Below, one piece after another: positions 9,131 to 27,392 of a stretch of 32,387 bases of DNA. Under the pieces are notes generated by a model, which searched no databases, was not told the origin of the DNA, and was given only the letters and a program-made list of their open reading frames with translations. How positions within the stretch are numbered: the first letter of the stretch is position 1; each line of letters opens with the position of its first letter. A program made the position numbers and the translations under genes. This DNA is from Candidatus Krumholzibacteriia bacterium (lineage in GTDB: Bacteria; Krumholzibacteriota; Krumholzibacteriia; WVZY01), in the NCBI GenBank assembly GCA_029863805.1, contig JAOTUR010000005.1, positions 1-32,387 of the forward strand, written 5' to 3'.

Positions 9131-10414
9131 TTATGTTTTCATCTTTTTCTTTTTCGCAGCAGGAAACAAAATGTTGTTCAAAATCAGCCGGTAGCCGGGC
9201 GAGTTTACGTGCAGAGCTAGATCTGTTGGCACGTCACCAACGGCGTGCTGGTAATCCTCTGGATCATGCCCGCCAAGAAAGGTGAATGTGCCCATACCGA
9301 GGTTGCCGTGCAAATACTTGACCTCAGTGTGAGCTGTATCTTCGCCGAGTATCAATACGCTGCGTTTTATTAAGGACTTCTTGAAACCAGTTGTCTGTCC
9401 CAGAAAACCCTTAACTACATTGACGTGGTTTTGAACAAGCATGCTCGGCACCGGATCGTGCTTTGCCGAAAACGCAAAGAGTGCGAAATAGTCAACGTCG
9501 CTACCACGCGCTTTTGCGTAATCGCTAGTATCAATATTTGAAAACTCATAGACGAGTGGATTTGAGATTAATCGAAATCCCGTAAAGGCATAGCAACGTT
9601 CATAGTCCAGCTTGTCTTGAAATCCCGGCGTGACTCCATCGTGATCGTACTCCTTGGGAACGACATCAAGGGAATGTGCCGCCAAGGTGATATCTATCGT
9701 GTCACACGCAGAGCACATGGCGAACAGAAAACCGCCGCCCGTTACGTATTCTCTGATTTTTTCGGCCACCGCTTTTTTTGCGTCGGGCACCTTGTCGAAT
9801 CCCAGTTTCTTGGCCAGCTTTTCGGACTGAACTTGCTGCGTTCGATACCATTCCGCGTGCCCGTAAGAGCCGTAAAACTTGCCGTACTGCCCGGTGAAAT
9901 CCTCGTGGTGTAGATGAAGCCAGTCGTACTCAAGCAGCTCACCCATGAGCACCTCCGCGTCGAAGACCTTTGCAAAAGGGATCTCTGCATAGGTCAGGGC
10001 AAGCGTCACTGCGTCATCCCAAGGTTGCTTATTTGGCGGTGTGTAAACCGCGATACGCGGCGCTTTCTCTAGAATCACTAGCTCCATGTTCTCTCTTTCT
10101 ACTTCGGCATAGATGACCGCCACGTCCGCACCACTGACTTCGCTAAAGGAGACGTTTTTTAGTCGCGCCTCCAGAATCACGCTCTTACCCGCCGGCAGAA
10201 CAAAGCTGCCACCCCGGTAGTTGAGCAACCAATGCACGGTGTGCCCTTTTTGCAGAGCATGAAAGGCCAGCCCATATGCCTTCAGGTGGTTGGTTTGCGT
10301 TAGATCCATGGGCACCAGTATCGAGGACGCCTGTGCCGGACAGGTGCCCGGAATGAGCGCCACCACCGCCAGGGCCAACGTCAACAAACGACTCACCACA
10401 ACAGACCTATTCAT
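9131..10414 (-). CDS. Exported class I amidotransferase-fold-like protein, function unknown
   Basis: A 427-residue protein with an N-terminal signal peptide (hydrophobic 5-24, likely cleavage after AQA near 29). I recall relatives beginning MDLTQTxHLKAYG that carry the label asparagine synthetase B, but no asparagine synthetase feature is visible: no N-terminal Cys nucleophile and no PP-loop. Instead, YVTGGGFLFAMCSACDT places Cys234 after a GGG turn, as at the nucleophile elbow of glutamine-amidotransferase-like folds. GGHDPEDYQ near 382 resembles the His-x-Glu part of the triad. ILVPMDLTQTNHLKAYG and WLLNYRGGSFVL are probable family motifs. The C-terminus is lysine-rich. The ATG overlaps the TPR stop as ATGA and has AGGTGAGG upstream, so it is translationally coupled as the last gene of the DUF4159 operon. 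Confidence 0.7.
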   Translation of the reverse strand: MNRSVVVSRLLTLALAVVALIPGTCPAQASSILVPMDLTQTNHLKAYGLAFHALQKGHTVHWLLNYRGGSFVLPAGKSVILEARLKNVSFSEVSGADVAVIYAEVERENMELVILEKAPRIAVYTPPNKQPWDDAVTLALTYAEIPFAKVFDAEVLMGELLEYDWLHLHHEDFTGQYGKFYGSYGHAEWYRTQQVQSEKLAKKLGFDKVPDAKKAVAEKIREYVTGGGFLFAMCSACDTIDITLAAHSLDVVPKEYDHDGVTPGFQDKLDYERCYAFTGFRLISNPLVYEFSNIDTSDYAKARGSDVDYFALFAFSAKHDPVPSMLVQNHVNVVKGFLGQTTGFKKSLIKRSVLILGEDTAHTEVKYLHGNLGMGTFTFLGGHDPEDYQHAVGDVPTDLALHVNSPGYRLILNNILFPAAKKKKMKT

Positions 10415-12321: not shown

Positions 12322-15300
12322 TCACTCTTTGTTAGGACTGGTGGGAGCTTCCTCGGCCAAGGCGCGGAAGTAGAGTTTGATCAGATCCTCGAACTCACCC
12401 GGTGCCTTTAGCGACATGGCTCGCTTTATCTCTTCTCGTAGCGACTGCGAGACAGATTTGCGCGATTCTGTGCCGTCCGTCGCCGAAAACACATCATCCG
12501 CCGAAACGCTGAGCCTCTTCTTTTCATAATCGCGTGAATGCACCGATCGGTTCGCATCAAGCAGACGACTGACTATCCGTTCTTGGTTGCGAACCGTCTG
12601 CTCATCGAGCACTCCACTGTTGAGATCACGGATGACTTCCTCCATCTCCTCGACGATCTTGTCCATGCGACCCAATACCCGGTTGTTACCCTTGACATCC
12701 TTTTCGATGTCCTCGGCCAGCTGCTGCAGTGACCGCTGCTCTCCGGCGAGACGCTCTATGGCTGCCTGTCTCTCCTGTAGCATTTTTTCCTGCAGCGCGC
12801 GCATTCCCAGTAAGGTCTGAGATTGCTGGAGAATCTGCTGCTGCTGCACCATGAGCATCTGCAACCGCGAAACTTGGTCTGACGCTCCGCCGCCGCCGCC
12901 TGACTGGCATTGTTGGCAGGCTGTCAGCAGCGCGATCGTCGTCGCGTTCAGATTGGTCACCGCCTGTGAGGCACTGGCCGTTGCCATGAACGCTTTGTTC
13001 TGCTCGAGAAAGAGCATTGAACTTCGCATGTTACTAATTGTCTTACCGAGGAGTCTCAAAAGCGCATCGGGCACCGCCACCGATTTCTTGCCGATCTCGT
13101 ACAGTTCATCTGAGATCTGCTCCACCGCTCTTACGTATGTCTGTTGTTCGTTGGCCAGCAACCGTACCCTGGACAGTTCCTCGGCGGATGCCTGTTCACT
13201 GAGACGGCTTGTGAGCTTTTCCTGTTTGAAGGACAGTGCAAGCGTGCTATTGGCAAGCCTCTGCAGGTTATCGGCTGTGCGGCGTCGTGACGCGTTGTTC
13301 ATCTGCGCCTGCACCGTCACCACCCGGCTAAAGAGTGCGATCAGATTATTCTTCGCCTCCTCCTGGCTTTGCATGGCTTCCTCCTTCTCTCCCCGGCGCA
13401 ACTGACCAGAAGCCTCCCGCATGGACTTTGATGCCCCGCTTTCACACATGCCTGAGGCGGCGGCCATGTCCTCCGACAACTGCTTTTCATCGATGTTCTC
13501 CGCCATTTTCTTCATTTCTTCTGCCAGCCGATCCGCCTTTTCCGCGAGAGCCTTTTGCTCTTCCGAGAGCTCGCCCATTTCTTGGTTGTCTCCAGCGTCG
13601 GCCTCTGATGTCTGCTCCTGGAGTCCCTCTTGCTCGTCCATCAAATCCCTGGCCTTACGCACCAGCTCTTCCATTTCCTGCTCCTGCTGAATCTCCCTCA
13701 GCAAGCTCTCCGTCCGCTCCAGACTCCGCAACAGGTCCTCGGCGTTGACATTGAGGTTCTGCAAAGCTTTTTGAACCTCTTGCGGATCGAGCTTGTTCAT
13801 TGCCTCACGAAGTTCCTCAACGTATCGGTTCAGCGCTTCATCGTTGATTGTTTCGATGAGACGATTGATCTCTTCGAGTTTCTCTCCGATCTCTTGCGAA
13901 GTCATCCGATTGTCGGACAGCGACTGAAGCGTCTCCTCTAGCGAGGTCTGGATATCCTCGAGTTTCTCCTCGATGCTTTGTTGCGACGATATGGCCTTGT
14001 CTATTTCCTTCTTTTGGCTCCAGTCCATCTCCTCTGTCTTTTTTAATTCTCGCGTAAGCTTCTCCAGTCGCTCTTTGAACTCCTCGGTTTCTTTCATCGC
14101 ATCCGCAAAAAGATCCGTCCGCTCAGCGTCTTCCTTTTTTATTTTTTCGTAGAGTTCCGCCATTGTGGGCACCGCGATGTGGAAGATTTGGCTCTTCGTG
14201 ACACCCGGACCGGTGACTACGTTGTTGTCCTCTACCTGCACAAAGTATTCGACGAAGTTACCGGGAAAAAGAGGAACGTCGCCAAGATCCCATTCAAACG
14301 CCTTGGCGATCTCACGCGTTCCCCTTTCGGCACCGAGGGGAATCGAACCACGAAGGAACCGCTCCTCGCCGTTCTTGCGATAAAAAATGCTGGCCTTGCT
14401 GATGCCGTAGTCATCTGAGGCCACGAACCGCAGATCGACGAGTAGGTTACGCGGCAACGTGGCGTCCTCGCCCGGCTCCAGCACATCGAGGACTGGCGGA
14501 TTATCCTTGTACACCTCGATCGAATGGACAATGGGGTCGTCGGTTCTATGTTGCAAGTCGTCTTCGAGTAGAATGCTGTACGGACCATCTTCGAGCGCGA
14601 AAAAATCGAACTCGAATGTCTTACCAGAAAAGTTCACGGGACGCGGTTTGTCCGAACCAAACTCGACCCAAGCGCCGCTCAGGATGTTGTTAGCCTGCGC
14701 GTGAATCGTGATCTTGGTCCCTTCGAGAGCCTGGATATTGCCACCGCTATCGATCAGGGTGTCGGCCGGCTCACCGGTATATTTGGGCGGATTGAGAACG
14801 ACGCTCATGTCGGTTACGATCGGTTTGTGTACCACATTGATGCGATACTTGCGGCTTTGTTGATCGCCCGCCCTGAAATAGTAGGTGATGGAACCGCGAA
14901 CATCCCTAAAAGTATAACGGTACTGCGTCAACGAGGCCTGATTGGACACCGCAACCTCGCTTGGCTCAGTGGCCTCCGTCTTCCAGAATCCCTCGGCGAG
15001 GTTGTAAGACAGTGCCACTGGTTCTTTCGAGCCCCCAAAATCGAACGCGACAACCTCTACATCGCTGCCGGCCAGCACGGTGACGTCACCCGGCGAACCG
15101 TACAGATTGGCCTTGTGAGTCAACGCTGACGCTGTTTTGGGTGAGACAATCCGCCGTCCGGTGTCAAAGAGAACCGTCGGCGACACCAGCGCAACAACAA
15201 TCAGAATGACAAGAGCGGCGTACGCTACAGGAACAAAAAGCAGTTGGCGCTGGTTCAGAAAGAGAAATCGGACTTGCAGCCCGACAACTGATTTGACGGC

Positions 15301-15708
15301 TTGTCGAACCACTTCGCGAACAAGTTCCGGAGAATAACGGGTGCCCAGATCGTCGCGTTCAGAAAACTCGTATCCGGCCGCGACGATGTGTTTGAAGTCT
15401 TTGTGATGCTCTACTTCGAGAGCCAGCCGACGAAACCGCGGCATGCGAGCGATGGGTAAGATGACAAAAAAGGCGGCAAGCAGAGCAAATAGGACAAACG
15501 TGGCCCGGCTAACCAGTATGGCTTGCCACAGCACGGGTTCATCAGTCGCCATCGTCCACAACAGCACGGCAAGAAAAACCCAAGCGGCAACCGCCAGAAA
15601 CGAAACGAGACCGGAGACGACACGGACGCCCAATGCCTTCAGGTAAATTTTTCTGAGTTCCCGGTGGAGTTGAGCGTCAAAAAAAATGGCTTTTCTCTCT
15701 CCCGACAT
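12322..15708 (-). CDS. DUF4175-like membrane-anchored coiled-coil protein
   Basis: A 1,128-residue protein with a DUF4175-type layout: hydrophobic segments near 30-52, 63-86 and 157-181, a beta-rich region from about 190 to 510 with repeated Ig-like stretches, then a long charged coiled coil from about 520 to 1,000 dominated by Glu, Lys and Gln. A CQQC motif followed by five glycines lies near residue 930, and a further Cys sits in GMCESG. After the third membrane segment the bulk should be periplasmic. No catalytic residues are recognisable. The ATG has AAGGGG about 7 nt upstream. DUF4175 genes are known to neighbour DUF4159/BatA-type clusters in other bacteria. The role is unknown; the shape suggests a structural or force-bearing envelope component. 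Confidence 0.75.
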   Translation of the reverse strand: MSGERKAIFFDAQLHRELRKIYLKALGVRVVSGLVSFLAVAAWVFLAVLLWTMATDEPVLWQAILVSRATFVLFALLAAFFVILPIARMPRFRRLALEVEHHKDFKHIVAAGYEFSERDDLGTRYSPELVREVVRQAVKSVVGLQVRFLFLNQRQLLFVPVAYAALVILIVVALVSPTVLFDTGRRIVSPKTASALTHKANLYGSPGDVTVLAGSDVEVVAFDFGGSKEPVALSYNLAEGFWKTEATEPSEVAVSNQASLTQYRYTFRDVRGSITYYFRAGDQQSRKYRINVVHKPIVTDMSVVLNPPKYTGEPADTLIDSGGNIQALEGTKITIHAQANNILSGAWVEFGSDKPRPVNFSGKTFEFDFFALEDGPYSILLEDDLQHRTDDPIVHSIEVYKDNPPVLDVLEPGEDATLPRNLLVDLRFVASDDYGISKASIFYRKNGEERFLRGSIPLGAERGTREIAKAFEWDLGDVPLFPGNFVEYFVQVEDNNVVTGPGVTKSQIFHIAVPTMAELYEKIKKEDAERTDLFADAMKETEEFKERLEKLTRELKKTEEMDWSQKKEIDKAISSQQSIEEKLEDIQTSLEETLQSLSDNRMTSQEIGEKLEEINRLIETINDEALNRYVEELREAMNKLDPQEVQKALQNLNVNAEDLLRSLERTESLLREIQQEQEMEELVRKARDLMDEQEGLQEQTSEADAGDNQEMGELSEEQKALAEKADRLAEEMKKMAENIDEKQLSEDMAAASGMCESGASKSMREASGQLRRGEKEEAMQSQEEAKNNLIALFSRVVTVQAQMNNASRRRTADNLQRLANSTLALSFKQEKLTSRLSEQASAEELSRVRLLANEQQTYVRAVEQISDELYEIGKKSVAVPDALLRLLGKTISNMRSSMLFLEQNKAFMATASASQAVTNLNATTIALLTACQQCQSGGGGGASDQVSRLQMLMVQQQQILQQSQTLLGMRALQEKMLQERQAAIERLAGEQRSLQQLAEDIEKDVKGNNRVLGRMDKIVEEMEEVIRDLNSGVLDEQTVRNQERIVSRLLDANRSVHSRDYEKKRLSVSADDVFSATDGTESRKSVSQSLREEIKRAMSLKAPGEFEDLIKLYFRALAEEAPTSPNKE

Positions 15709-15816: not shown

Positions 15817-16545
15817 CTACGGGAGGGCGTTCTGGGCAATCGCGTACATAAGTATGTTTACAGCCATTCGCATGGCCAGTTCCCGCTTCTCCTCGGGATC
15901 GTTGTGGACCCTCGCGTCCTCGAGGCCATCACCAATATCGGACTCATAGCTATAATATAATACCAGCCGGCCGTTCAGCGTAATCCCCAGTCCGCGTGGG
16001 GTCTTACCATCGTGCTCATGAATCTTCGGCAACCCCGGAAGATCGTAAAAAACATGGTAAATCGGATGTGTGTTTGCCAGCGGCTCGAGCCGCTGCTCCG
16101 GAAACAGCTGGGCCACCATTTTGCGGAACGACTTGTCCATCCCGTAGTTGTCATCCGCGTATAGAAACCCACCCGATTCGAGGTGAGCTCGAAGCGCGTC
16201 GACTTCCTCTGCCGTGAGGCGGATCGTGCCATGCCCCGTCATATAAAGAAACGGGTAGGCTCGGAGGTTCTCATCGGTCAGGCTCACCACCTTCTCCTCG
16301 CCATGGGTCTGTACGCCGGTACGTCTTTTGAACTCCCTCAACCAATTGGGTATGGATGACGGGTCGCAGTACCAATCTCCGCCACCCCCGTACTTTACAC
16401 GAGCGATACGGACCGCATATTCATCAGCGGGGTCGCCGGCGGGGGCTCGGGCACCGACCGCTAGCGGCCAGGACAACACAACCAGCCCTCCCAGGACGCA
16501 GGCCATTCGTAGTTTTACAGTTATGACCGATCGACGTGAAAACAA
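15817..16545 (-). CDS. DUF4159-domain exported protein
   Basis: A 242-residue protein with a hydrophobic N-terminus (residues 14-32, likely cleaved after ARA) and a full DUF4159 domain. Motifs are RVKYGGGGDWY near 48-59, LYMTGHG near 100-106, GGFLYADDNYG near 125-135, HPIYHVFYDLPG near 160-171 and LYYSYESDIGDGLED near 196-210. The domain has a class I amidotransferase-like fold, but the nucleophile-elbow position has Asp rather than Cys, so it is probably a binding domain. The TTG start at 16545 is preferred: AGGTGAGGTGAGAG lies just upstream, while the inner ATG at 16506 has none and would cut the signal peptide. It is the first gene of the four-gene operon, 108 bp ahead of the DUF4175 gene. 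Confidence 0.86.
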   Translation of the reverse strand: MFSRRSVITVKLRMACVLGGLVVLSWPLAVGARAPAGDPADEYAVRIARVKYGGGGDWYCDPSSIPNWLREFKRRTGVQTHGEEKVVSLTDENLRAYPFLYMTGHGTIRLTAEEVDALRAHLESGGFLYADDNYGMDKSFRKMVAQLFPEQRLEPLANTHPIYHVFYDLPGLPKIHEHDGKTPRGLGITLNGRLVLYYSYESDIGDGLEDARVHNDPEEKRELAMRMAVNILMYAIAQNALP

Positions 16546-16583: not shown

Positions 16584-16624
16584 AGTATAGGAACTATTAG
16601 GTACAAAAGCAATTACCGTGTCAA
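16584..16624 (-). promoter_or_regulatory. Predicted overlapping promoters for the DUF4159 operon
   Basis: Two overlapping minus-strand candidates: TTGACA (16619-16624) with CCTAAT (16596-16601), spacer 17, and TTGCTT (16607-16612) with TATACT (16584-16589), spacer 17. Either gives a leader of about 32-44 nt before the TTG start, containing the ribosome site. Confidence 0.55.
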
Positions 16625-16758
16625 AACGCTTGTCTATCCGACGACGCCCGCCGGCGATATGAATCATCACCGCGTTTCGACGTTCGCCAAAGATGTTGCC
16701 TGGCCGATTGACATATTTTATTGTAGCTCTAGCGGTTAATCGTCCGATTGATGCCCTC

Positions 16759-18429
16759 ATGCTCATTCTCTTCTTGATAGCAATCATTCTGTTCGCATTG
16801 GCTTATCGAATCTACGGAGCCTTTCTCGATCGGCAGTTTACCGTCGAGCCCTCCCGCAAGACGCCTGCCCACACCCACTTCGACGGCGTCGACTACGTGC
16901 CCACCAGGACACCGGTTTTAATGGGGCATCATTTCTCATCGATCGCCGGTGCCGGGCCGATCGTCGGGCCCATTATCGCGGTCGCGTTCTTCGGATGGCT
17001 GCCCGCGGTGCTGTGGATTATTCTCGGGGCGATATTCGTCGGGGGTGTGCACGATTACTCGGCGCTGGTGGTGTCGATCCGCCACCGGGCTCGTTCGATC
17101 GCGCAAGTCGCCAAACGAATGATGAGCCCGCTGGCTCACCGGCTCTACCTGGCCTTTATATGGCTGGCAATGGTGTATGTACTCGTCGCTTTTGTTGATC
17201 TGACCGCCGGTAGTTTTGCCGCCGATGGTGGCGTTGCCAGTTCGTCGGCGATGTATATTTTGCTGGCCCTCATCATGGGGTTTGCAGTGGCTCGACTCAA
17301 CTTATCATTGGTAAGGGCGAGTCTCATATTCGTACCATTGGTGTTTTTCGCTATTTATCTAGGACAGCAGTTTCCTTTTGCGTCGCCGCCGCCTTTGGCT
17401 CATGGGGATCCCAAGACCACTTGGACTGTTATCCTACTTGCCTATTGTTTCGTAGCTTCTGTTACACCGGTCTGGGTATTGTTGCAACCGCGCGATTATT
17501 TGTCCTCTTATCTACTGATCGGCTGCATTCTCGGCGGCCTCGGCGGTATCGCTCTGGGGCGGCATACATTGGACACACAGGCATTTCTGGGTTTCAACAC
17601 GAACATCGGCTTTCTCTTCCCGGCTCTTTTCATAACCATCGCCTGCGGTGCCTGTTCCGGTTTTCATTCTGTCGTAGCGTCGGGCACCACTTCTAAGCAG
17701 CTCAATGACGAGCGTTCCGCTCGCCCAGTCGCCTACGGCTCGATGCTGGTGGAAGGTTTGTTGGCGTTGATTTCGGTGAGTGCAATCGTTGTCGCTGGCG
17801 GCACGTTGGCGGAACGCACTCCAACGACGGTCTTCGCCTCGGGAATGGGCACCTTTCTCGCCTCGTTGGGTATACCACAGGCTCTAGGAACGTCATTTGG
17901 CCTGCTGGCGCTTAGCACGTTTCTCCTCACCACGCTCGACACCGGTACCCGCCTATCGCGTTACGTATTTGAGGAGTTCTTCAATATCTGGGGAAAGAAG
18001 GCACACTTTATTGCAACAGCCGCCACTCTTATTCTGCCGTTGTGGCTAGCCCTCACCGAGTACAGAGACGCGCAGGGGCAGGTCATCCCCGTGTGGAGGG
18101 CGATCTGGCCGGTCTTTGGCGCTACTAATCAACTTCTCGGTGCGCTCGCGCTGATTACGGTCGGCGTGTGGTTGAAACGTACAGGAAGGAGAACGGTGTT
18201 TGTGATTATTCCCATGGTTTTCATGTTCGCCGTCACGTTGCTCGCGCTGGCCATGCTGGTGTGGAAGAATGACATTCTGGTGATTCGCACCATCGCTCTC
18301 TTTCTATTTGCTCTGGCGGCAACCCTGATTTTCGAGGCGGTACGGGCTTTCTCGGGCGGTCGGGTGGTTGACGATGACGGAATGCCGGACCAGGGTCCAA
18401 CGGTTGCCGCGGGTGGCAAGGTCTGTTAA
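16759..18429 (+). CDS. cstA: Carbon starvation protein A family transporter
   Basis: An inner-membrane transporter of 556 residues with at least 14 hydrophobic segments. Characterised CstA/BtsT members import pyruvate, and CstA has also been linked to peptide uptake. Family motifs are GVDYVPT, the conserved HHFSSIAGAGPIVGPIIA, GGVHDYSALV, HSVVASGTTSKQ, the C-terminal LDTGTRLSRYVFEE and FGATNQLLGALALI. I chose ATG at 16759 (MLILFLIAIILFALAYRIYG), which matches how the family begins. An in-frame ATG at 16693 would add 22 residues, but a TTGACA at 16708-16713 lies inside that extension. Neither start has a good ribosome site. It is divergent from the DUF4159 operon and convergent with the giant kinase, 12 bp away. 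It is shorter than E. coli CstA (about 700 residues), which is common outside enterobacteria. Confidence 0.94.
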   Translation: MLILFLIAIILFALAYRIYGAFLDRQFTVEPSRKTPAHTHFDGVDYVPTRTPVLMGHHFSSIAGAGPIVGPIIAVAFFGWLPAVLWIILGAIFVGGVHDYSALVVSIRHRARSIAQVAKRMMSPLAHRLYLAFIWLAMVYVLVAFVDLTAGSFAADGGVASSSAMYILLALIMGFAVARLNLSLVRASLIFVPLVFFAIYLGQQFPFASPPPLAHGDPKTTWTVILLAYCFVASVTPVWVLLQPRDYLSSYLLIGCILGGLGGIALGRHTLDTQAFLGFNTNIGFLFPALFITIACGACSGFHSVVASGTTSKQLNDERSARPVAYGSMLVEGLLALISVSAIVVAGGTLAERTPTTVFASGMGTFLASLGIPQALGTSFGLLALSTFLLTTLDTGTRLSRYVFEEFFNIWGKKAHFIATAATLILPLWLALTEYRDAQGQVIPVWRAIWPVFGATNQLLGALALITVGVWLKRTGRRTVFVIIPMVFMFAVTLLALAMLVWKNDILVIRTIALFLFALAATLIFEAVRAFSGGRVVDDDGMPDQGPTVAAGGKVC

Positions 18430-18441
18430 GGCTGACGTCGG

Positions 18442-21400
18442 TCAAGCCGGCTTCAGGTACAGCGTTGCGCTCACACCTTTTTCCTTTTCCACGTTTGTCA
18501 CCACGACGTCACCGCCCATCTCGCGAGATAAAGTACGACAAATGGCCAACCCCAGACCAGTGCCGGTCGTCTTGGTCGAAAAATAAGGTTCGAACAACTT
18601 CTGTTTTACGTCATCGGTCAAGCCCGAACCGGTATCTCGGAAAGACACCATCACGTGTTCCTGACCTTGGTGCATGGCCCGGGAACAGGTGATATCCAGC
18701 CGTCCCCCATTCGGCATGGCTTCCATCGCATTCTCGATAAGATTGGTACAGATCTTACGAAGCGCCTCGCTGTCCACCAAAACACGGAGATTCTGTTCTT
18801 CGCAACGCAACGCGACCTCGATACCTGCTGTGTTTTTCCGGTATGGGGCCACCATATCTTCGATTTGTGGCGCTAGCGCATGCGACACGAGATCGAGTTG
18901 CTGCAATCGTCCGAAGCTCGAGAACTCGCTTGCGATATGCCGAAGCACTTCGACCTGATGGATTATCGTGTCGGACCCTTCTTTGAAGATTGTGTTGAAA
19001 TCCTCCGCTTTCTCTTCATGTGCCTTGACCATGAATTGTGCGGAGAGCTTGATCGGCGTCAACGGATTCTTGATCTCATGAGCTATTTGTCGGGCCATCT
19101 CTACCCAGGCCGAGAGCTTCTTTGAATTGATGAGCTCGGTCAGGTCCTCAAACACATAGACGGTGCCAAGATAGCGCCCATCGGTACTGAGCCTTGTTCG
19201 CATATACTTGATGGTCCGTGTGCGACCGTCTGCCGTGATGTCTATCTCTGACGAAACAAAGGGCTCATCCTGCGAAGAGCCGCGCGCAAGTATCGCAAAA
19301 AACTCCGGCACGACGTCGTGTTGCACAAGCTCGTCGGCCGATTTTTGCATCACATCGGCGCTTCTTAGATTGAGAATACGCTCGGCGGCGTTGTTGACGG
19401 CTCTGATTCGATCATCGGCGTCGGTACTTATTACCCCGGTACCGATATTTGCAAGTATTACCTCAAGATATCGTCTACGTTCCTCGAGGGCGTTCTGCGA
19501 CTTCAACAGCTGGTCGGTCATTTCGTTGAACGCCTCCACCACGGTGCCGATTTCGTCGCTTCGCAAAGCCGGCAACTTGAACGTCAAATCGCCACGGCTA
19601 ATTCGCTTGGTCCCTTCCAACAAACCCTTGAGTGGTTCAAATATGCCACGCGCAAGGAGAAGCCCCAAGCCCATAGTCGCCGCCGACAACAATGCAAAGA
19701 TACTCAAGACTATCGATGACGCTTTTTGAACTTCGACATGATAGGACTCCGGTCGAAACAGTAACGGGAGCCCAATCGCACCGCTTTCGTCACGGGTCGC
19801 CGTCTGAACGGGCAGATACGCGACCTCATAGCGATAACGACCCGCTCGCTCGGTGACTAGCGATTGATCCACCCTCATCAACGATACTTTGACATAAGCA
19901 TCGGCGTTCATCATCGAACTAATAAATCCGCCGAATAGTAGGCCTTCTCTGCTGGTCGCTATTAGCTCGCCCTTATCGTAGACGTTTATATCGGCCCCGA
20001 TTTGATCAGCGATTTCACCAAGCAACTGTCCGTCGACCCTCCGTGCATAGTAGACCATGAACGTACTTATCGCTTCGCCAACCTTGAAACTAAAGGGCCC
20101 ACTGAGCACCGCAGCGCGCGGTTCTTCCTTTTGCCCGTGTATGAATACTTGTTCGGTCGAGAATCGTTCCAACAGCGCTGCCACGTCCCAGTCAACGGCA
20201 TCCACACCCGCCCCGCCTTGCGTCTGATTGTCATTGCCCTTGCCCCCCACAACAACCCGCTCGTAGGTTCCGACCGGGTCACCGGTATCGACAAACACCT
20301 CTATCGATCGAGTCTTATCGCGCAGAAAGGAACGTGGAATGTCACCCGATACGAGTTCACGAAGATCCGAATGGTCAAGAAGATAGTTCAGTTCATCGAT
20401 CAACAGATTGCTCAGAGACTTCCGTGCACTGAACGATTTGTAGAGTGCTTCCTTTCTGTTCTCCTCGACAAAACGCTCTTTAATAAGACGTATCGAGAAC
20501 ACTCCCAGAATAATCGATGGCAACAATGCAATAATCAAAAACGAGACCAGCAATTTTTGTTGAAAACCCAATCGACGACCCGGAGTCAACGTCGGCATTA
20601 TTGCTCTCAAGAACGGAAGGCTTTTCAAAACGATTATCAGAACGATAATTGCCACCGTAAAGAAAAAATACAGTGATAGAATCGTTGACCAACGTAGAAG
20701 GTGCTGTAACGGCCCGGGCACCGGAAAGCCCGCCAGCAGGTAATTACCCCGCTCTTCACTTTCCTGAACTAGAAATCGGTATGGCGCGTTGGCAGTTTTG
20801 ATAACTGGCCACTCGAGATTCATCGCTTTGTCAAGTTCCGACTCCGGAAAGGCAAAACCGGCAGGCAGAACATCTGAGGAACTCTCGACGACGCGTGTTC
20901 CTTTCAACCGAGCGAGCAATAGCACTTCGGTTTCTTCGAGACGTGGTTCGATTCCTCCCTCCTGCACATTGCGTAATACCTCCGGCGTTTGCGGTCCGGT
21001 TCTCGACGCCCAGGCGAGACTCTCAAAAAAAAACGGTATGTCCACAACGACCTTGCCCGTACTACTGTGGCTACCGGCGCCCAGCACGGTGGGACCGAAA
21101 CCCCGAATATTCACTATTCCACGGTAAAACCGTACTTTTCCTCCGGGTGTGCTCGTTGTCAGATCGAGCACCACCCACTCTTGAGATGAAACAGTCTCCA
21201 AACGCTCCGTCGCTTCTGCGACTTTCACGCGATACGGCATCTCCACCGTGAACCGACTTATCAGGCTATCGTGCTCGTTAAACACATGTATGGCACTACT
21301 ATAGCCGAGAAGGCTCAGCGAGCTCCCTGCCCACAAATCAAAGGCAAGCCTTTGAACATCGACCGATTCCCCGCGCCGCAACGTCTCGCGGATCGAGTTG

Positions 21401-23445
21401 TCCTGTGAGAATCTTTCAAGCACATCTTCCAGAATAAAAACCTTCCAGTTGTCCGAGGGGTCCGTCAGTTCGGAGACTCTCTCCTGAATAAATGTCCGCC
21501 TCAGCGCTTGATAGTTGTCGTTCAAAAACAAATAAGCCACCGCTGACACGATGATCACAAAACAAAACGCTGCGAGCACGATCGATACCAGATCTTCGCG
21601 CTGGATAATGCGTGGCGCAAATACGACAAAGAGGAGAAGCAACAGCACAAGAAACGCGGTTTGCCAGTCCCACGCGAAGAGCGAAACAACGACGATGACA
21701 AACACGGCGGCCAGCGAAGACCTTGTCGCATCCATCCTGCTCCCCATGCGATACAGGCCCCACACGCAAATCATCCCCGCAAGAAAAATGCCTGACATCA
21801 TCAAGAAGGTGCTCAAATGCAGCATTACAGCGTAAGACTCAAACAGTTTCATGGTCTCGCCTACGAGCCTCGGATTGGCGTTGACCACGACGCTATGAAC
21901 GAACCGTCGTGACAGTTCGAAGGTGCCAAAAAGGGCAACGGCGGCGAGAGCACCTTTGATCACAAACAGCCACGATGAGCTTTTTATTGGAGAGGGCCGT
22001 TGCGTTCGGATTGATGCCCGTGTTATTTTGAGCGCGCCATACAACGCTATGACAAAAAACACCGACGTGATCATAAGGTCACCCGCACTTCGCATCAAAC
22101 CACCGAGAATCGGCGTGGCAAAGACCGCCGGATCGAAGAGCTTGTGCTGCGAATCGAACAGGACGGGCAAGAGCCAGACTCCCCAGTACCGTATCAGAAG
22201 AAAAAACCCAATCAGATATATGGCTTTTGTTACACCCGCGGGTCCGGCGAGTCGGGGTGGAAACACTCTCAGCGAGAAGACAAAATAGACAATGAGCGCG
22301 AGCAGAATCAGAACGCTGGCCCGAGCGCGATTCTTACTCTTGTAGTTGTCGAGAAAATATCGGAATGGCCTACTTGTGATCGTGATGGTGAAAAGTGGGT
22401 TGCCCAACTTGCTGTGCACCAGCGCACGACCGGTAAGTCCCGCCGACTCGTCGCCATGGATCTCCCCAAAGGGCCTGACAATCGCGGGAAACCCCGCGTA
22501 ATTGAGCAGCGAATCCCCGTCGGCCGCCCGCCCGGATTCCTTGATACGCCCGATCTCGGCCTCCCGCGCGCGAAGGTTCTTCTCAGCATTGTCAATGGTG
22601 TACGGCAGGTTCGGCATGGTGGGCGCGTAGTCAAACCTGACATTTGCCGCGGAGCCCTGGGCGATGTTGTCCACGAAACTGGTGCTTTTTAGGAACTTGT
22701 TATTGACCTTATAGTTCACCTCGAGAGGCATATCGATGGCCAGCGTGGCAACCCGTTCGCCGGAGTTATTGCTAATCGGTATGATGTGGGTCAGGATCTG
22801 GTAGAGAGACACCTGTCGCGAGTAAAGCAGTGTCTTGCCACTTGCAACAAATCTGTGATCCTGCGGAAAAAGCGACTGCGGCCATCCGGCCCAAGCAAAG
22901 CGCTTACCGTTCTTGTCGAATAATTGGATACCAATTTCCGTGCCGGGTGGCAACTCGCCGCCATTTCTTACCCGGGTGGCCTGGCTTTCCAGCAGCCCAA
23001 ATGCTTCGAGTCGCAGACCCGTCGAGTCCTCGCGCATAGTCCGCTCTCGCTCCAGGATAAAGGTGGAGGCCTGGTTGCCAAGGCCTGTGGAAAGCGCCTG
23101 AAGACTTTGTACGCGCTCACCGACTGCTTGCAGCATCGAGATCGTGGATCGAGCCTCGTGTCTGCGCCACAGTCTTCTTAGGTCATCGGCATCGCGATGG
23201 ACGGCAATCAACGAAATTCCGGCAAGAAAAACGAGGGTTCCGGCAGCGACGACCACGAAGCGGGGCCCGGTCGGGCGGCTGCTACGCACAGCCAGAATGA
23301 CAGCCAGCGCGATTAAGACCATCTGCAGCCAGGGCGTGATCAACGCCGGGAGCTCAAATGTGCCCAACAGTTCGACAAAAACCAGCGCCCAACTGGCTAG
23401 AGAGAGCAGAACGGCGATTCCAAGCTTATCGAATGGATTTCTCAT
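18442..23445 (-). CDS. Giant NtrY-like sensor histidine kinase with an added polytopic sensor module
   Basis: A membrane histidine kinase of about 1,667 residues, roughly twice the usual NtrY length. Numbering from a GTG at 23454: hydrophobic segments at 11-31, 40-56 and 66-84; an extracytoplasmic region 85-378; about eight segments from 379 to 645; a second extracytoplasmic region 646-920; segments at 922-945 and 968-990; a third, Cache-like region 991-1245; a segment at 1246-1268; HAMP about 1270-1322; PAS 1325-1440; HisKA with HEIKNPLTPIK (His1459); and an ATPase domain with NLIENAMEAMPNGG (N box), DTGSGL (G1) and GTGLGLAI (G2). Residues from about 960 onward match a complete NtrY. ATG at 23445 is taken as the start; no clear ribosome site. 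No response regulator is adjacent in the window. The signal sensed is unknown. Confidence 0.92.
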   Translation of the reverse strand: MRNPFDKLGIAVLLSLASWALVFVELLGTFELPALITPWLQMVLIALAVILAVRSSRPTGPRFVVVAAGTLVFLAGISLIAVHRDADDLRRLWRRHEARSTISMLQAVGERVQSLQALSTGLGNQASTFILERERTMREDSTGLRLEAFGLLESQATRVRNGGELPPGTEIGIQLFDKNGKRFAWAGWPQSLFPQDHRFVASGKTLLYSRQVSLYQILTHIIPISNNSGERVATLAIDMPLEVNYKVNNKFLKSTSFVDNIAQGSAANVRFDYAPTMPNLPYTIDNAEKNLRAREAEIGRIKESGRAADGDSLLNYAGFPAIVRPFGEIHGDESAGLTGRALVHSKLGNPLFTITITSRPFRYFLDNYKSKNRARASVLILLALIVYFVFSLRVFPPRLAGPAGVTKAIYLIGFFLLIRYWGVWLLPVLFDSQHKLFDPAVFATPILGGLMRSAGDLMITSVFFVIALYGALKITRASIRTQRPSPIKSSSWLFVIKGALAAVALFGTFELSRRFVHSVVVNANPRLVGETMKLFESYAVMLHLSTFLMMSGIFLAGMICVWGLYRMGSRMDATRSSLAAVFVIVVVSLFAWDWQTAFLVLLLLLFVVFAPRIIQREDLVSIVLAAFCFVIIVSAVAYLFLNDNYQALRRTFIQERVSELTDPSDNWKVFILEDVLERFSQDNSIRETLRRGESVDVQRLAFDLWAGSSLSLLGYSSAIHVFNEHDSLISRFTVEMPYRVKVAEATERLETVSSQEWVVLDLTTSTPGGKVRFYRGIVNIRGFGPTVLGAGSHSSTGKVVVDIPFFFESLAWASRTGPQTPEVLRNVQEGGIEPRLEETEVLLLARLKGTRVVESSSDVLPAGFAFPESELDKAMNLEWPVIKTANAPYRFLVQESEERGNYLLAGFPVPGPLQHLLRWSTILSLYFFFTVAIIVLIIVLKSLPFLRAIMPTLTPGRRLGFQQKLLVSFLIIALLPSIILGVFSIRLIKERFVEENRKEALYKSFSARKSLSNLLIDELNYLLDHSDLRELVSGDIPRSFLRDKTRSIEVFVDTGDPVGTYERVVVGGKGNDNQTQGGAGVDAVDWDVAALLERFSTEQVFIHGQKEEPRAAVLSGPFSFKVGEAISTFMVYYARRVDGQLLGEIADQIGADINVYDKGELIATSREGLLFGGFISSMMNADAYVKVSLMRVDQSLVTERAGRYRYEVAYLPVQTATRDESGAIGLPLLFRPESYHVEVQKASSIVLSIFALLSAATMGLGLLLARGIFEPLKGLLEGTKRISRGDLTFKLPALRSDEIGTVVEAFNEMTDQLLKSQNALEERRRYLEVILANIGTGVISTDADDRIRAVNNAAERILNLRSADVMQKSADELVQHDVVPEFFAILARGSSQDEPFVSSEIDITADGRTRTIKYMRTRLSTDGRYLGTVYVFEDLTELINSKKLSAWVEMARQIAHEIKNPLTPIKLSAQFMVKAHEEKAEDFNTIFKEGSDTIIHQVEVLRHIASEFSSFGRLQQLDLVSHALAPQIEDMVAPYRKNTAGIEVALRCEEQNLRVLVDSEALRKICTNLIENAMEAMPNGGRLDITCSRAMHQGQEHVMVSFRDTGSGLTDDVKQKLFEPYFSTKTTGTGLGLAICRTLSREMGGDVVVTNVEKEKGVSATLYLKPA

Positions 23446-23527
23446 GCCTTGCACAAGCCGATAAACTCAAGGCTTCAAAACATGATAGCAGAAATAGGGG
23501 CGGATCGGTGGCCGCATGGCCGGAGAT

Positions 23528-24088
23528 TCAGCGGATCGACTTGATCTCACTTATCACCCAGTTACTGTCTTCCAGCTGCAACGATACATAGATCTTGTCC
23601 TCGAACAACCTGCCATCATCGTTTCTCTTGTACGAGCGCTCAGCCACTGCATACACTTTAGCGCGGCCGTCCGATACATTGCGATACTGGATGAACTCGA
23701 ACTTCTTCGTGATGGTGTATTTGAAGAGGTCTTTGAGGAGGTAGTGGCTTTGGTTCTTGCTAAACGCCCCACCCCTCGGTCCGATGCCGTCAATGGCGAT
23801 CGCCACTTTGCCCTTCCCGTAGTGGCGAAGTATGAGCCGAACATTCTCCTTTTTCCAACCCTCTTCGATATCGGCAAACACTCCGATAGGTCCCAGGTTA
23901 TCCGCTTCCCGGTTTACCGGCGTCGTCGAATCCGCCGGCTCTCTGGACTTCGCTTTGCGGGTGGGCTTTGCTTTTGGGGTAGACTTGGCCATTTTGGATC
24001 GGGCCAGCACCACTGCGTCAGACGCAGCAACACCCACCCATCCGCTGGCCAGCAGAAGGCAGAATAGAGTTAAGCATGCGGTTCTCAT
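23528..24088 (-). CDS. DUF4783-like exported NTF2-fold protein
   Basis: A 186-residue protein with a signal peptide (hydrophobic 5-22, cleavage near VAAS), a Lys/Pro/Thr-rich linker (about 30-60), and a C-terminal domain resembling DUF4783. Matching features are GVFADIEEGWKKENVRLIL, a basic beta strand KVAIAIDG, FSKNQSHYLLKDLF near 110-125, and the terminal VSLQLEDSNWVISEIKSIR. That family has an NTF2/SnoaL-like fold with no assigned function. It lies 83 bp upstream of the giant kinase start and 140 bp downstream of the DUF456 gene, all on the same strand, so it could be part of the kinase's expression unit or supply a periplasmic partner. That link is inference. No obvious ribosome site precedes the ATG. 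Confidence 0.72.
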   Translation of the reverse strand: MRTACLTLFCLLLASGWVGVAASDAVVLARSKMAKSTPKAKPTRKAKSREPADSTTPVNREADNLGPIGVFADIEEGWKKENVRLILRHYGKGKVAIAIDGIGPRGGAFSKNQSHYLLKDLFKYTITKKFEFIQYRNVSDGRAKVYAVAERSYKRNDDGRLFEDKIYVSLQLEDSNWVISEIKSIR

Positions 24089-24228
24089 GATGACACGGCC
24101 ATATCAAACGTATAAATCACCGCAAGCTCCATGCCAGGCTAATTCCGTTGAAAATAAGGAAGTTAGTGTTGTCAGGAGTCCAAAGTGTGTCCTAATTCCA
24201 GGACTGGCTGCGCTCGAAAGTGGACAGA

Positions 24229-24765: not shown

Positions 24766-25674
24766 TTATTTCTGACGCTTTCGTCTTCGGGCTCGCCACA
24801 ACTCCCATTCGACCAGCACCGGGCTTGCGATGAAGATCGACGAGTAGGTACCCACAATAACGCCAACCAGGAGCGTCAGCGCGAAATCCCTGATGACCGG
24901 CCCACCGAGAATCACAAGGCACAATACGACGACCAGTGTGGTGAGCGATGTGATAATGGTTCGTGAGAGTGTTTCATTGATCGACGCGTTGACAACGACT
25001 GGGTACCCCTCCCGCTTTCGCGATCGTAGATTCTCCCGGATTCGGTCGAATACCACAATCGTGTCGTTGAGTGAATAGCCAACGATGGTCAGGACGCCAG
25101 CGATGACCGGAATCGACAGCTCTCGGTTACTAACCGAGAAGAACCCCAGTGTGAACAAGACGTCGTGAATCAGCGCGATTATCGCGGCCACCGCAAACCT
25201 GAACTCGAACCGCCACGATATATAGATGACGATACCGGCGAGTGAATAGATTATTGCCCAAAACGCAGCCGTTTTCAGCTCGTTTCCGATCTTGGGCCCC
25301 ACCGTTTCAACTCGACGCATGTCGATATCTCGGTCGCCAAAACTGTCTTTCAAGGCTTGCTCGATCCTTGCAGATGCCTCAGCGGCCTCGCCGATTCTCT
25401 TGACTTTGATGAGAATCTCTTCGTCGGCTCCAAAGTGGGTGACTTCGGCACCCTCAAAACCCACCGCATCGATGACATCCCGAACTTGCTGTAGCGGGAC
25501 GGCTTGATCAAACCGCACCTCTACCAGCGTACCGCCCGCAAAATCTATGCTGGTGTTAAAACCCTTGTGAACGGCGACCGAAACCAAGCCCACAAGAATC
25601 AAGATACCGGACAAAAGAATGCTCTTTCTTCTAAAGGCGATGAAATTGATGTGTGTGCTCTTGATAAGTCGCAT
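24766..25674 (-). CDS. secF: Protein translocase subunit SecF
   Basis: SecF pairs with SecD to use the proton motive force to pull exported proteins through SecYEG into the periplasm. At 302 residues it has the normal length. There is one N-terminal membrane helix (about 18-36) followed by NTSIDFAGGTLVEVRFDQ, a small periplasmic domain, then five C-terminal helices. VGYSLNDTIVVFDRIRENLR is the conserved cytoplasmic-face motif with the Asp/Arg pair. The C-terminus is basic (RARRRKRQK). The ATG lies 8 bp after the secD stop, and its ribosome site TGAGG overlaps the secD stop region, so translation is coupled. Confidence 0.97.
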   Translation of the reverse strand: MRLIKSTHINFIAFRRKSILLSGILILVGLVSVAVHKGFNTSIDFAGGTLVEVRFDQAVPLQQVRDVIDAVGFEGAEVTHFGADEEILIKVKRIGEAAEASARIEQALKDSFGDRDIDMRRVETVGPKIGNELKTAAFWAIIYSLAGIVIYISWRFEFRFAVAAIIALIHDVLFTLGFFSVSNRELSIPVIAGVLTIVGYSLNDTIVVFDRIRENLRSRKREGYPVVVNASINETLSRTIITSLTTLVVVLCLVILGGPVIRDFALTLLVGVIVGTYSSIFIASPVLVEWELWRARRRKRQK

Positions 25675-25682
25675 CGAAAACC

Positions 25683-27392
25683 TCAGATACTCAATTTGCG
25701 AAGCGCCCTTCTCGCCGTAATCAGATCAAACACAACTCTCGTGCACAGAAGCGCGGTGAACATACTAGCAACGATGCCGATACTCAGCACTGTTGCAAAT
25801 CCCTTAATGGGACCGGTGCCAAATTGCCATAAAACAAATGCCGTGATCAGCGTAGTGAGATTTGCGTCAAGAATGGTAGTAAAAGCACGCTCGTAGCCGC
25901 TGTCGATCGCACTCCTTACCGTTTTTGCCTTGGCCAGCTCCTCACGAATCCTCTCGAAGATCAGGACATTCGCGTCGACAGCCATGCCAATGGTCAGAAT
26001 CAGACCCGCGATTCCTGGCAAGGTGAGCGCCGCCCGCAGCTGAGCGAGCGCGGCCAGCACGATGACTAAGTTCAGGATCAGCGCACCGCACGCCAGAATC
26101 CCTGAAAAACGGTAGTAAATCAACATGAACAGCAGGACCAGAACAAAACCGTAGAGGGCCGCTTTGACGCCCAATACAATCGAGTCGCGCCCGAGCGTCG
26201 GCCCCACCGTTCGCTCCTCGATGATTTTGACCGGTGCGGGCAAGGCGCCGGCGCGGAGCACGATGGCTAGGTCATTGGCCTGTTCGTCTGTAAAGCTCCC
26301 CGTGATCCGCCCCTCGCCACCCGGAATCTTTGTCTGCACCACAGGAGCCGAAACCACGTTGCCATCCAAGACGATGGCGATCCGCCGGCCGACGTTTTCG
26401 CCGGTAAAGCGAGAGAAAATAATCGCGCCTTCGCGATTGAGCTGAAATGACACATTCAGAGTGCTGGGATCGTCGGGGTCCGGACGCGTGGTCGCGTTGA
26501 CCAGTGTTGCACCCGTAAGGGTGGCACGGGTCTCGACCAAATAAAACAACCGCCCCAGACCACTTCCCTGCAGCGGCTTGGCCTCGTTTTCCCAAAGAAA
26601 CACGGACTGTCTTGGCATGACCCGCTGTGCCTGCGGGGTAGCCAGAAGAAGTTCGACCGCTTCCTTGTTGCTCTCCTGGACGACAACCGCCCCACCCGAC
26701 CCCGAGATTAGATACGAAGAAAAGGGGCGGTCTTCAGACGCCTCGAAGGGCACCTCCACTTCCTCGGTGCCGGGAAGCGTGGGAATCAGAGTATCAAACG
26801 GTGTCACCGACTCCGCCGTATCCGCATCGGCCAAGGTGCTCAGCGTGTCCCCCTCCGGCAAGTCGGCGCCCTGGCTATCGCTCAGCTGCCCGGTTGTATC
26901 AACCACCGCCCCCACGACCTTAACCCCCTTCAGCGCCTCATCCAGGTCCCGCAGCACCCGTCCTACCTCTTCGGACTCGCGAACCAAGCGAAACTCGAGC
27001 AGCGCCGTATCACCTATCAAGCGTTTGGCGCGATCCGCGTCCTGGAGGCCGGGCAGCTGCACGATGATCCTGCGACCTCCCTGTTTTTGAATGACGGGTT
27101 CAGACACGCCAAACTGATCTACGCGGTTGCGAATGATCTTGATCGCACGATCCAGCGCATCCTTCCTTGCGTCCTCTTCGAGCTTGGTATCATCAATTTC
27201 AAGGACAAGATGCATCCCCCCCTGCAGATCCAGACCGAGCTTGATCGCCGCTTCGAGATACTTGTTTTTGTCTACTTGAGATAAACCGGAGCGTGTCTCC
27301 GCGGCCATGGAATAATAGCGAACCGTTGGTATCAACTGGTAGACGGAATACAGGATCACTGCAATGATAAAAAGGTACTTCCATCTCTTCAT
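25683..27392 (-). CDS. secD: Protein translocase subunit SecD
   Basis: The large subunit of the SecDF export motor. At 569 residues, domain order is: helix 1 (5-20), LGLDLQGGMHLVLEID near 52-67 (the DLQGG family motif), the periplasmic P1 head, then five C-terminal helices with AGLILTIGMAVDANVLIFER near 462-481 containing the conserved Asp. Residues about 165-222 form an Asp/Thr/Ser/Pro-rich stretch between VVGAVVDTTG and EDRPFSSYL that looks inserted in the P1 region and of low complexity. The ATG has AGAGG at 27399-27403, 6 nt spacer. The 243-bp upstream gap holds a near-consensus promoter and a hairpin abutting the ribosome site. secF follows at once. Confidence 0.97.
   Translation of the reverse strand: MKRWKYLFIIAVILYSVYQLIPTVRYYSMAAETRSGLSQVDKNKYLEAAIKLGLDLQGGMHLVLEIDDTKLEEDARKDALDRAIKIIRNRVDQFGVSEPVIQKQGGRRIIVQLPGLQDADRAKRLIGDTALLEFRLVRESEEVGRVLRDLDEALKGVKVVGAVVDTTGQLSDSQGADLPEGDTLSTLADADTAESVTPFDTLIPTLPGTEEVEVPFEASEDRPFSSYLISGSGGAVVVQESNKEAVELLLATPQAQRVMPRQSVFLWENEAKPLQGSGLGRLFYLVETRATLTGATLVNATTRPDPDDPSTLNVSFQLNREGAIIFSRFTGENVGRRIAIVLDGNVVSAPVVQTKIPGGEGRITGSFTDEQANDLAIVLRAGALPAPVKIIEERTVGPTLGRDSIVLGVKAALYGFVLVLLFMLIYYRFSGILACGALILNLVIVLAALAQLRAALTLPGIAGLILTIGMAVDANVLIFERIREELAKAKTVRSAIDSGYERAFTTILDANLTTLITAFVLWQFGTGPIKGFATVLSIGIVASMFTALLCTRVVFDLITARRALRKLSI

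Follow-up and report, generated by a model that had tools for sequence, protein, structure and literature searches.

The window, by which we mean the whole stretch of 32,387 nucleotides analysed, is one entire contig (C373 of genome G000). On its minus strand, a strand left unstated by the original prediction, a single open frame encodes a giant sensor histidine kinase with an NtrY-class core, accompanied on the same strand by secD, secF and genes of several DUF families. The relevant features, all on the minus strand, are the following:

25683..27392 (-): secD, conserved upstream neighbor of the kinase
24766..25674 (-): secF, conserved upstream neighbor of the kinase
24121..24136 (-): sigma-54-type -24/-12 site, TGGCATGGAGCTTGCG, before the DUF4783-kinase unit, conserved in position
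23528..24088 (-): DUF4783-like gene, immediately preceding the kinase
18442..23454 (-): giant NtrY-class sensor histidine kinase, one open frame, 1667–1670 aa
23200..23424 (-): three membrane helices, residues 11–85 (hydropathy and charge bias)
22318..23199 (-): extracytoplasmic region 1, residues 86–379, tentatively Cache-like
21535..22317 (-): eight-helix membrane module, residues 380–640 (hydropathy and conservation)
20683..21534 (-): extracytoplasmic region 2, residues 641–924, possibly Cache-like (the weakest case)
20497..20682 (-): two-helix membrane hairpin, residues 925–986 (hydropathy)
19714..20496 (-): extracytoplasmic region 3, residues 987–1247, putatively Cache-like
19504..19659 (-): HAMP, residues 1266–1317 (Pfam)
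19162..19467 (-): cytoplasmic PAS, residues 1330–1431 (Pfam)
18901..19101 (-): HisKA, residues 1452–1518 (Pfam)
18451..18774 (-): HATPase_c, residues 1561–1668 (Pfam)
15817..16545 (-): DUF4159 gene, which usually follows the kinase directly but is separated from it here by cstA
12322..15708 (-): DUF4175 gene, following DUF4159 in the conserved block

The kinase starts either with a GTG at 23454 (1670 aa) or, three codons further on, with an in-frame ATG at 23445 (1667 aa), the point at which the relative L010 also starts. The claim of one continuous frame is borne out, and an assembly join of two genes is ruled out, because the same long frame is present in independent assemblies, closed single-contig chromosomes included, and because codon-position GC is of one type across the entire frame. 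Close relatives with this frame are annotated as Candidatus Latescibacterota; one is annotated as Chitinivibrionia, and there a masked stretch breaks the frame. Within the phylum of the window (Latescibacterota), a four-sequence N-terminal profile detects relatives in at least 65 of the 80 genomes, and a 23-sequence profile covering the membrane part and the second outer region detects them in at least 73, at about one copy per genome, with open frames of about 1500–1780 aa on all contigs of sufficient length. With a broader profile, relatives were found in at least 12 of the approximately 307 sampled genomes outside the phylum, their frames measuring about 1360–1650 aa where intact. All these counts are lower bounds because the best few candidates per genome were scored. 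A literature search retrieved no published description of such a kinase.

Kyte-Doolittle analysis places 14 helices in the protein, 12 of them within residues 1–950, as originally counted, followed by helices at 968–986 and 1248–1266. The two additional extracytoplasmic regions, for which about 290 and 275 residues had been claimed, span 294 and 284 aa by hydropathy (86–379 and 641–924), and the third comprises 261 aa (987–1247). This topology, with the three large regions outside and HAMP inside, fits the positive-inside rule in 38 relatives: lysine and arginine make up 15–34% of every inside loop, compared to 5–6% of the short outside loops and about 11% of the three large outside regions. 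Such an arrangement could plausibly allow the integration of multiple signals.

From about residue 960 on, the protein had been considered a full NtrY, which stands for the kinase core. The cytoplasmic part has the same HAMP-PAS-HisKA-HATPase order as NtrY (of the NtrYX systems of alphaproteobacteria and Neisseria), with all four domain matches above the Pfam cut-offs, and the same HEIKNPLTPI motif, which within HisKA contains the phospho-acceptor H1459 (codon 19078–19080); the ATPase boxes are intact, the N, G1 and G2 box residues being invariant across 23 relatives, and, as in NtrY, one extracytoplasmic region lies beside HAMP. In phylogenetic analysis of a small set with some long branches, the kinase cores of the giant family cluster with two NtrYs from alphaproteobacteria and with an NtrY-like kinase encoded in the same genome, in a single clade (98/94) that excludes NtrB, GlnL and AtoS/ZraS-like kinases. 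The family profile scores the two NtrYs at 382 and 349 bits versus 113–287 bits for seven other kinases. The best matches in a plasmid collection include the annotated NtrY of S. meliloti (1e-42), and the top match is a Paracoccus kinase in an ntrB-ntrC-ntrY-ntrX type gene order.

The membrane and periplasmic part of NtrY is a different matter. The window protein has no NtrY_N Pfam match at E 0.01, and beyond the cytoplasmic part it resembles NtrY only faintly (10.7–17.8 bits, over the membrane hairpin and the third outer region); for these reasons, we assign the protein an NtrY-class kinase core and do not classify it as an ortholog of proteobacterial NtrY. The two NtrYs compared are only 752–771 aa long, against 1667 aa for the giant kinase, in which residues 1–900 have no NtrY counterpart. 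An ordinary NtrY region of unusual length is ruled out as well: residues 1–960 have no Pfam match, and residues 1–950, which the original prediction did not recognize, have no match in Pfam, NCBIfam, PDB sequences or plasmid records. The proposed joining of a normal NtrY to a second sensor is not supported: the long form is already present in every relative found, no N-terminal module on its own came to light among the proteins retrieved, and the likeness to NtrY is slight outside the kinase core. Judging from these sequence comparisons, the giant kinase combines an NtrY-class core with an N-terminal sensor module that is new and very large.

No response regulator adjoins the kinase and none is encoded within the window, in agreement with the original prediction and unlike the situation in NtrYX. 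The suggestion made there to look for NtrX-like regulators elsewhere in the genome led to an orphan NtrX-family sigma-54 activator on contig C404. The connection between the two comes from another phylum, where a sigma-54 response regulator is encoded directly after the kinase in three genomes (G155, G290 and G292); at locus L117, the two genes overlap by 4 bases. Used as a query against complete genomes, this kinase-paired regulator yields one clearly best match in each, with 47–53% identity, and the orphan ortholog is located beside rlmN and a 1019-aa TPR/sigma-54 protein in families f1, f3, f4, f5, f6, f7 and f8. The latter protein (L162:1990-5049, L168:2843-5902 and orthologs) is TPR-like in its N-terminal part and resembles a sigma-54 activator in its C-terminal part. 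There is no directly adjacent kinase at the orphan regulator in Latescibacterota loci from seven families or in G136, a genome from another phylum; in G002, a kinase is found near the orphan, on the opposite strand past rlmN, and G003 has a distinct kinase-regulator pair some 2.5 kb from the orphan. A regulator profile gives a high-scoring match in 73 of the 80 Latescibacterota genomes. In the genome of the window, it retrieves at threshold only a paralog on contig C105 as the end of C404 truncates the orphan, leaving 244 residues that are 81% identical to the ortholog in G076. Phylogenetically, the kinase-paired regulators fall into a single clade with the orphans (86/88). The orphan activator is thus probably the missing partner of the giant kinase, although this pairing is derived for Latescibacterota from another phylum and from moderately supported trees, as the kinase and the regulator are not adjacent.

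A second, shorter NtrY-NtrX-like kinase-regulator pair is encoded on contig C105 of the same genome (L003, L103) and also in G075 (L166). Conceivably, the giant kinase serves as an auxiliary input to the regulator of this pair or to several regulators, with the orphan responding to something else. Such an arrangement would be in line with the adjacency of an NtrY-type kinase and an NtrX-like regulator on C105 and with the 48% identity of that regulator to the kinase-paired regulator from the other phylum. We nevertheless deem it unlikely: the kinase-paired regulators group in the tree with the orphans, not with the C105 type, and the identity to the G155 regulator is 47–52% for the orphans versus 44% for the C105-type regulator of G075. 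The assignment of the orphan activator as the partner therefore remains our preferred one.

Within the N-terminal module, the eight-helix segment contains a near-invariant arginine (R422) inside a helix and two conserved outer loops, DPxxFAT..GGL..S..D (442–459) and NANPRLIG...LHL (525–547). Neither a consistent Pfam match nor a known transporter family is recovered across 34 members, and PDB sequences give no match. Fusion of a polytopic module to a kinase, together with the conserved arginine and outer loops, could still be taken to mean that the module is a transporter or an enzyme and that the protein senses its own transport or catalysis, as a transceptor similar to CbrA of Pseudomonas. 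CbrA is not known to have three large outer regions around its helices, as the giant kinase does, and its membrane module is an SLC5 transporter, whereas here it consists of eight unassigned helices located between large outer regions. What the two share is the fusion of a polytopic membrane module with a histidine kinase that acts with an NtrC-family regulator, and CbrA provides the precedent for a membrane transporter and a histidine kinase in a single chain (PMC7096432; PMC13022988). With no transporter family consistent among the members and none suggested by PDB sequences, we give the transceptor explanation little credence.

The large outer regions show some resemblance to Cache domains, which comes from relatives, as the window protein itself has no Cache match in regions 1–3. 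The dCache_3 profile matches region 1 of relative L079 (1.5e-5) and region 3 of relative L080 (2.5e-5) just under the curated cut-off, and dCache_1 matches region 2 of L080 below it (0.002); member-by-member scans of the relatives added few further matches. Region 1 contains an invariant tryptophan (W188) within the motif G-x-R-x-AWAG. Two structure models, built from four aligned sequences, were poor (pLDDT 48.6 and 46.9). In the low-confidence model of region 1, a long N-terminal helix is followed by two beta sheets, which is the published Cache layout (PMC4822843), and its fold matches, to be taken as hints only, include the double-Cache sensors McpB (5e-5), DctB and KinD; the model of region 2 produced no significant fold match. 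Profile comparison of the outer regions with each other gives weak similarities (E 4.6e-5, 1.1e-4 and 1.5e-3), which are consistent with, but do not prove, a single shared fold. Taken together, these weak signals hint that all three regions may be Cache-like, the difference from DctB, KinD and McpB being that three separate such regions are present in one chain, split by membrane modules.

The gene neighborhood of the kinase is conserved across Latescibacterota families and several other phyla, with the order, on one strand, polysaccharide deacetylase, (pdxJ), secD, secF, (DUF456), (DUF4783), kinase, DUF4159, DUF4175 and a TPR protein; the gap between the kinase and DUF4159 is often less than 150 bp. 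The conserved locus is one of protein-export and envelope genes. The DUF4159-DUF4175-TPR block ends in the window with a 427-aa secreted protein (9131–10414) that shows approximately 57–64% identity across families and has no Pfam or NCBIfam match. We found no paper on DUF4159 and a single one on DUF4175, which concerns A. baumannii AdvA and cell division. The cstA gene (pyruvate/peptide permease family, 16693–18429), inserted between the kinase and DUF4159, occupies this position only in the family of the window and was not seen there in other families; in the window, L009 and L011 it converges with the kinase, and in L061, where its sequence is divergent, the two are co-directional. NtrY was initially linked to nitrogen, and glnA, glnD and cstA share the contig with the kinase. 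A primary role of the kinase in sensing nitrogen or carbon status is nonetheless highly improbable, considering that cstA adjoins it in the family of the window alone, that the nitrogen genes are at least 13 kb away, that the neighbors common to families and phyla are secDF and DUF4159/DUF4175, and that no role in nitrogen was apparent for NtrYX of R. sphaeroides (PMC7240162).

The sigma-54-type site of the window (24136..24121) is located 33 bp before the DUF4783 start. Under the criteria of GG at -24, GC at -12 and at least 5 of the 7 other consensus bases, such sites are present in 16 of the 39 secF-kinase intervals, versus an expectation of 3.9 in shuffled sequences and 3 sites on the opposite strand. 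At 14 of the 39 loci, the site lies 455–802 bp before the kinase, just ahead of the DUF4783-like gene at those loci where one is recognized; upstream of DUF4783, the count is 9 of 15 versus 0.5 expected. Over the whole window, sites of this type are not above chance, so that only the position conserved among relatives counts, and no clear site is found at the expected place in the f3, f4, f5 and f7 loci or in most loci from other phyla. The genome of the window encodes RpoN. With a sigma-54 activator as the proposed partner, this promoter is most simply read as that of an autoregulated unit. NtrX of Rhodobacter sphaeroides offers a parallel, with binding upstream of both its own operon and envelope genes, and NtrYX controls envelope genes in that species (PMC7240162). 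A stretch resembling AGGACAGATTT...GTAAC..RTT occurs 20–57 bp before the -24 element in the window, L009, L010, L061 and L058, and may represent either a binding site for a regulator or what is left of a terminator; a search for CAA-N(3-5)-TTG type motifs and inverted repeats upstream of the promoter gave no consistent result. A second sigma-54-like site, TGACACGGTAATTGCT (16608–16623, minus strand), mismatched at one position of the -24 GG, is located 63 bp ahead of DUF4159, which cstA cuts off from the kinase operon, and is only suggestive.

On balance, we favor the hypothesis that the kinase, the orphan activator and their own sigma-54 operon constitute an NtrY/NtrX-type system of envelope surveillance, a role for which NtrY with its NtrX-family sigma-54-type regulator provides a published parallel. 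The kinase would survey the outer side of the inner membrane through its three, probably Cache-type, extracytoplasmic regions and the eight-helix module. A signal from outside would be relayed by the last helix and HAMP to the HisKA/ATPase core, presumably a dimer, which is predicted to autophosphorylate at H1459, and the phosphoryl group would be transferred to the NtrX-family sigma-54 activator encoded elsewhere, on C404 in the genome of the window. The phosphorylated activator would then drive the promoter at 24121–24136, upstream of DUF4783 and the kinase, in a unit that in most relatives would also take in DUF4159-DUF4175. If the activator indeed drives this promoter, the system would thereby control its own operon and part of the envelope or export machinery. 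Several observations count against this hypothesis: the C105 pair and many other sigma-54 regulators of the same genome could serve instead, cstA splits DUF4159 from the kinase in the family of the window, the structure models are poor and the window protein lacks a Cache match.

More speculatively, and with considerable doubt, the giant kinases might represent a widespread, undescribed class in which three Cache-type sensors and an eight-helix module of a new fold read several export or envelope states, for example Sec translocation or outer-membrane traffic, and pass this on to an autoregulated sigma-54 operon via the orphan NtrX-like activator, as a counterpart in Latescibacterota and related phyla to Cpx, Rcs or NtrYX in Proteobacteria.

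The N-terminal sensor module described here is conserved and absent from the family libraries searched. Through the kinase locus, the DUF4159, DUF4175 and DUF4783 genes, whose function is unknown, become tied to SecDF and to a regulator of the NtrY/NtrX type. For these uncultured phyla, the findings outline a two-component system that is almost universal and whose partner, promoter and operon can be tested; they also suggest that envelope control by NtrY/NtrX-like systems reaches past Proteobacteria.
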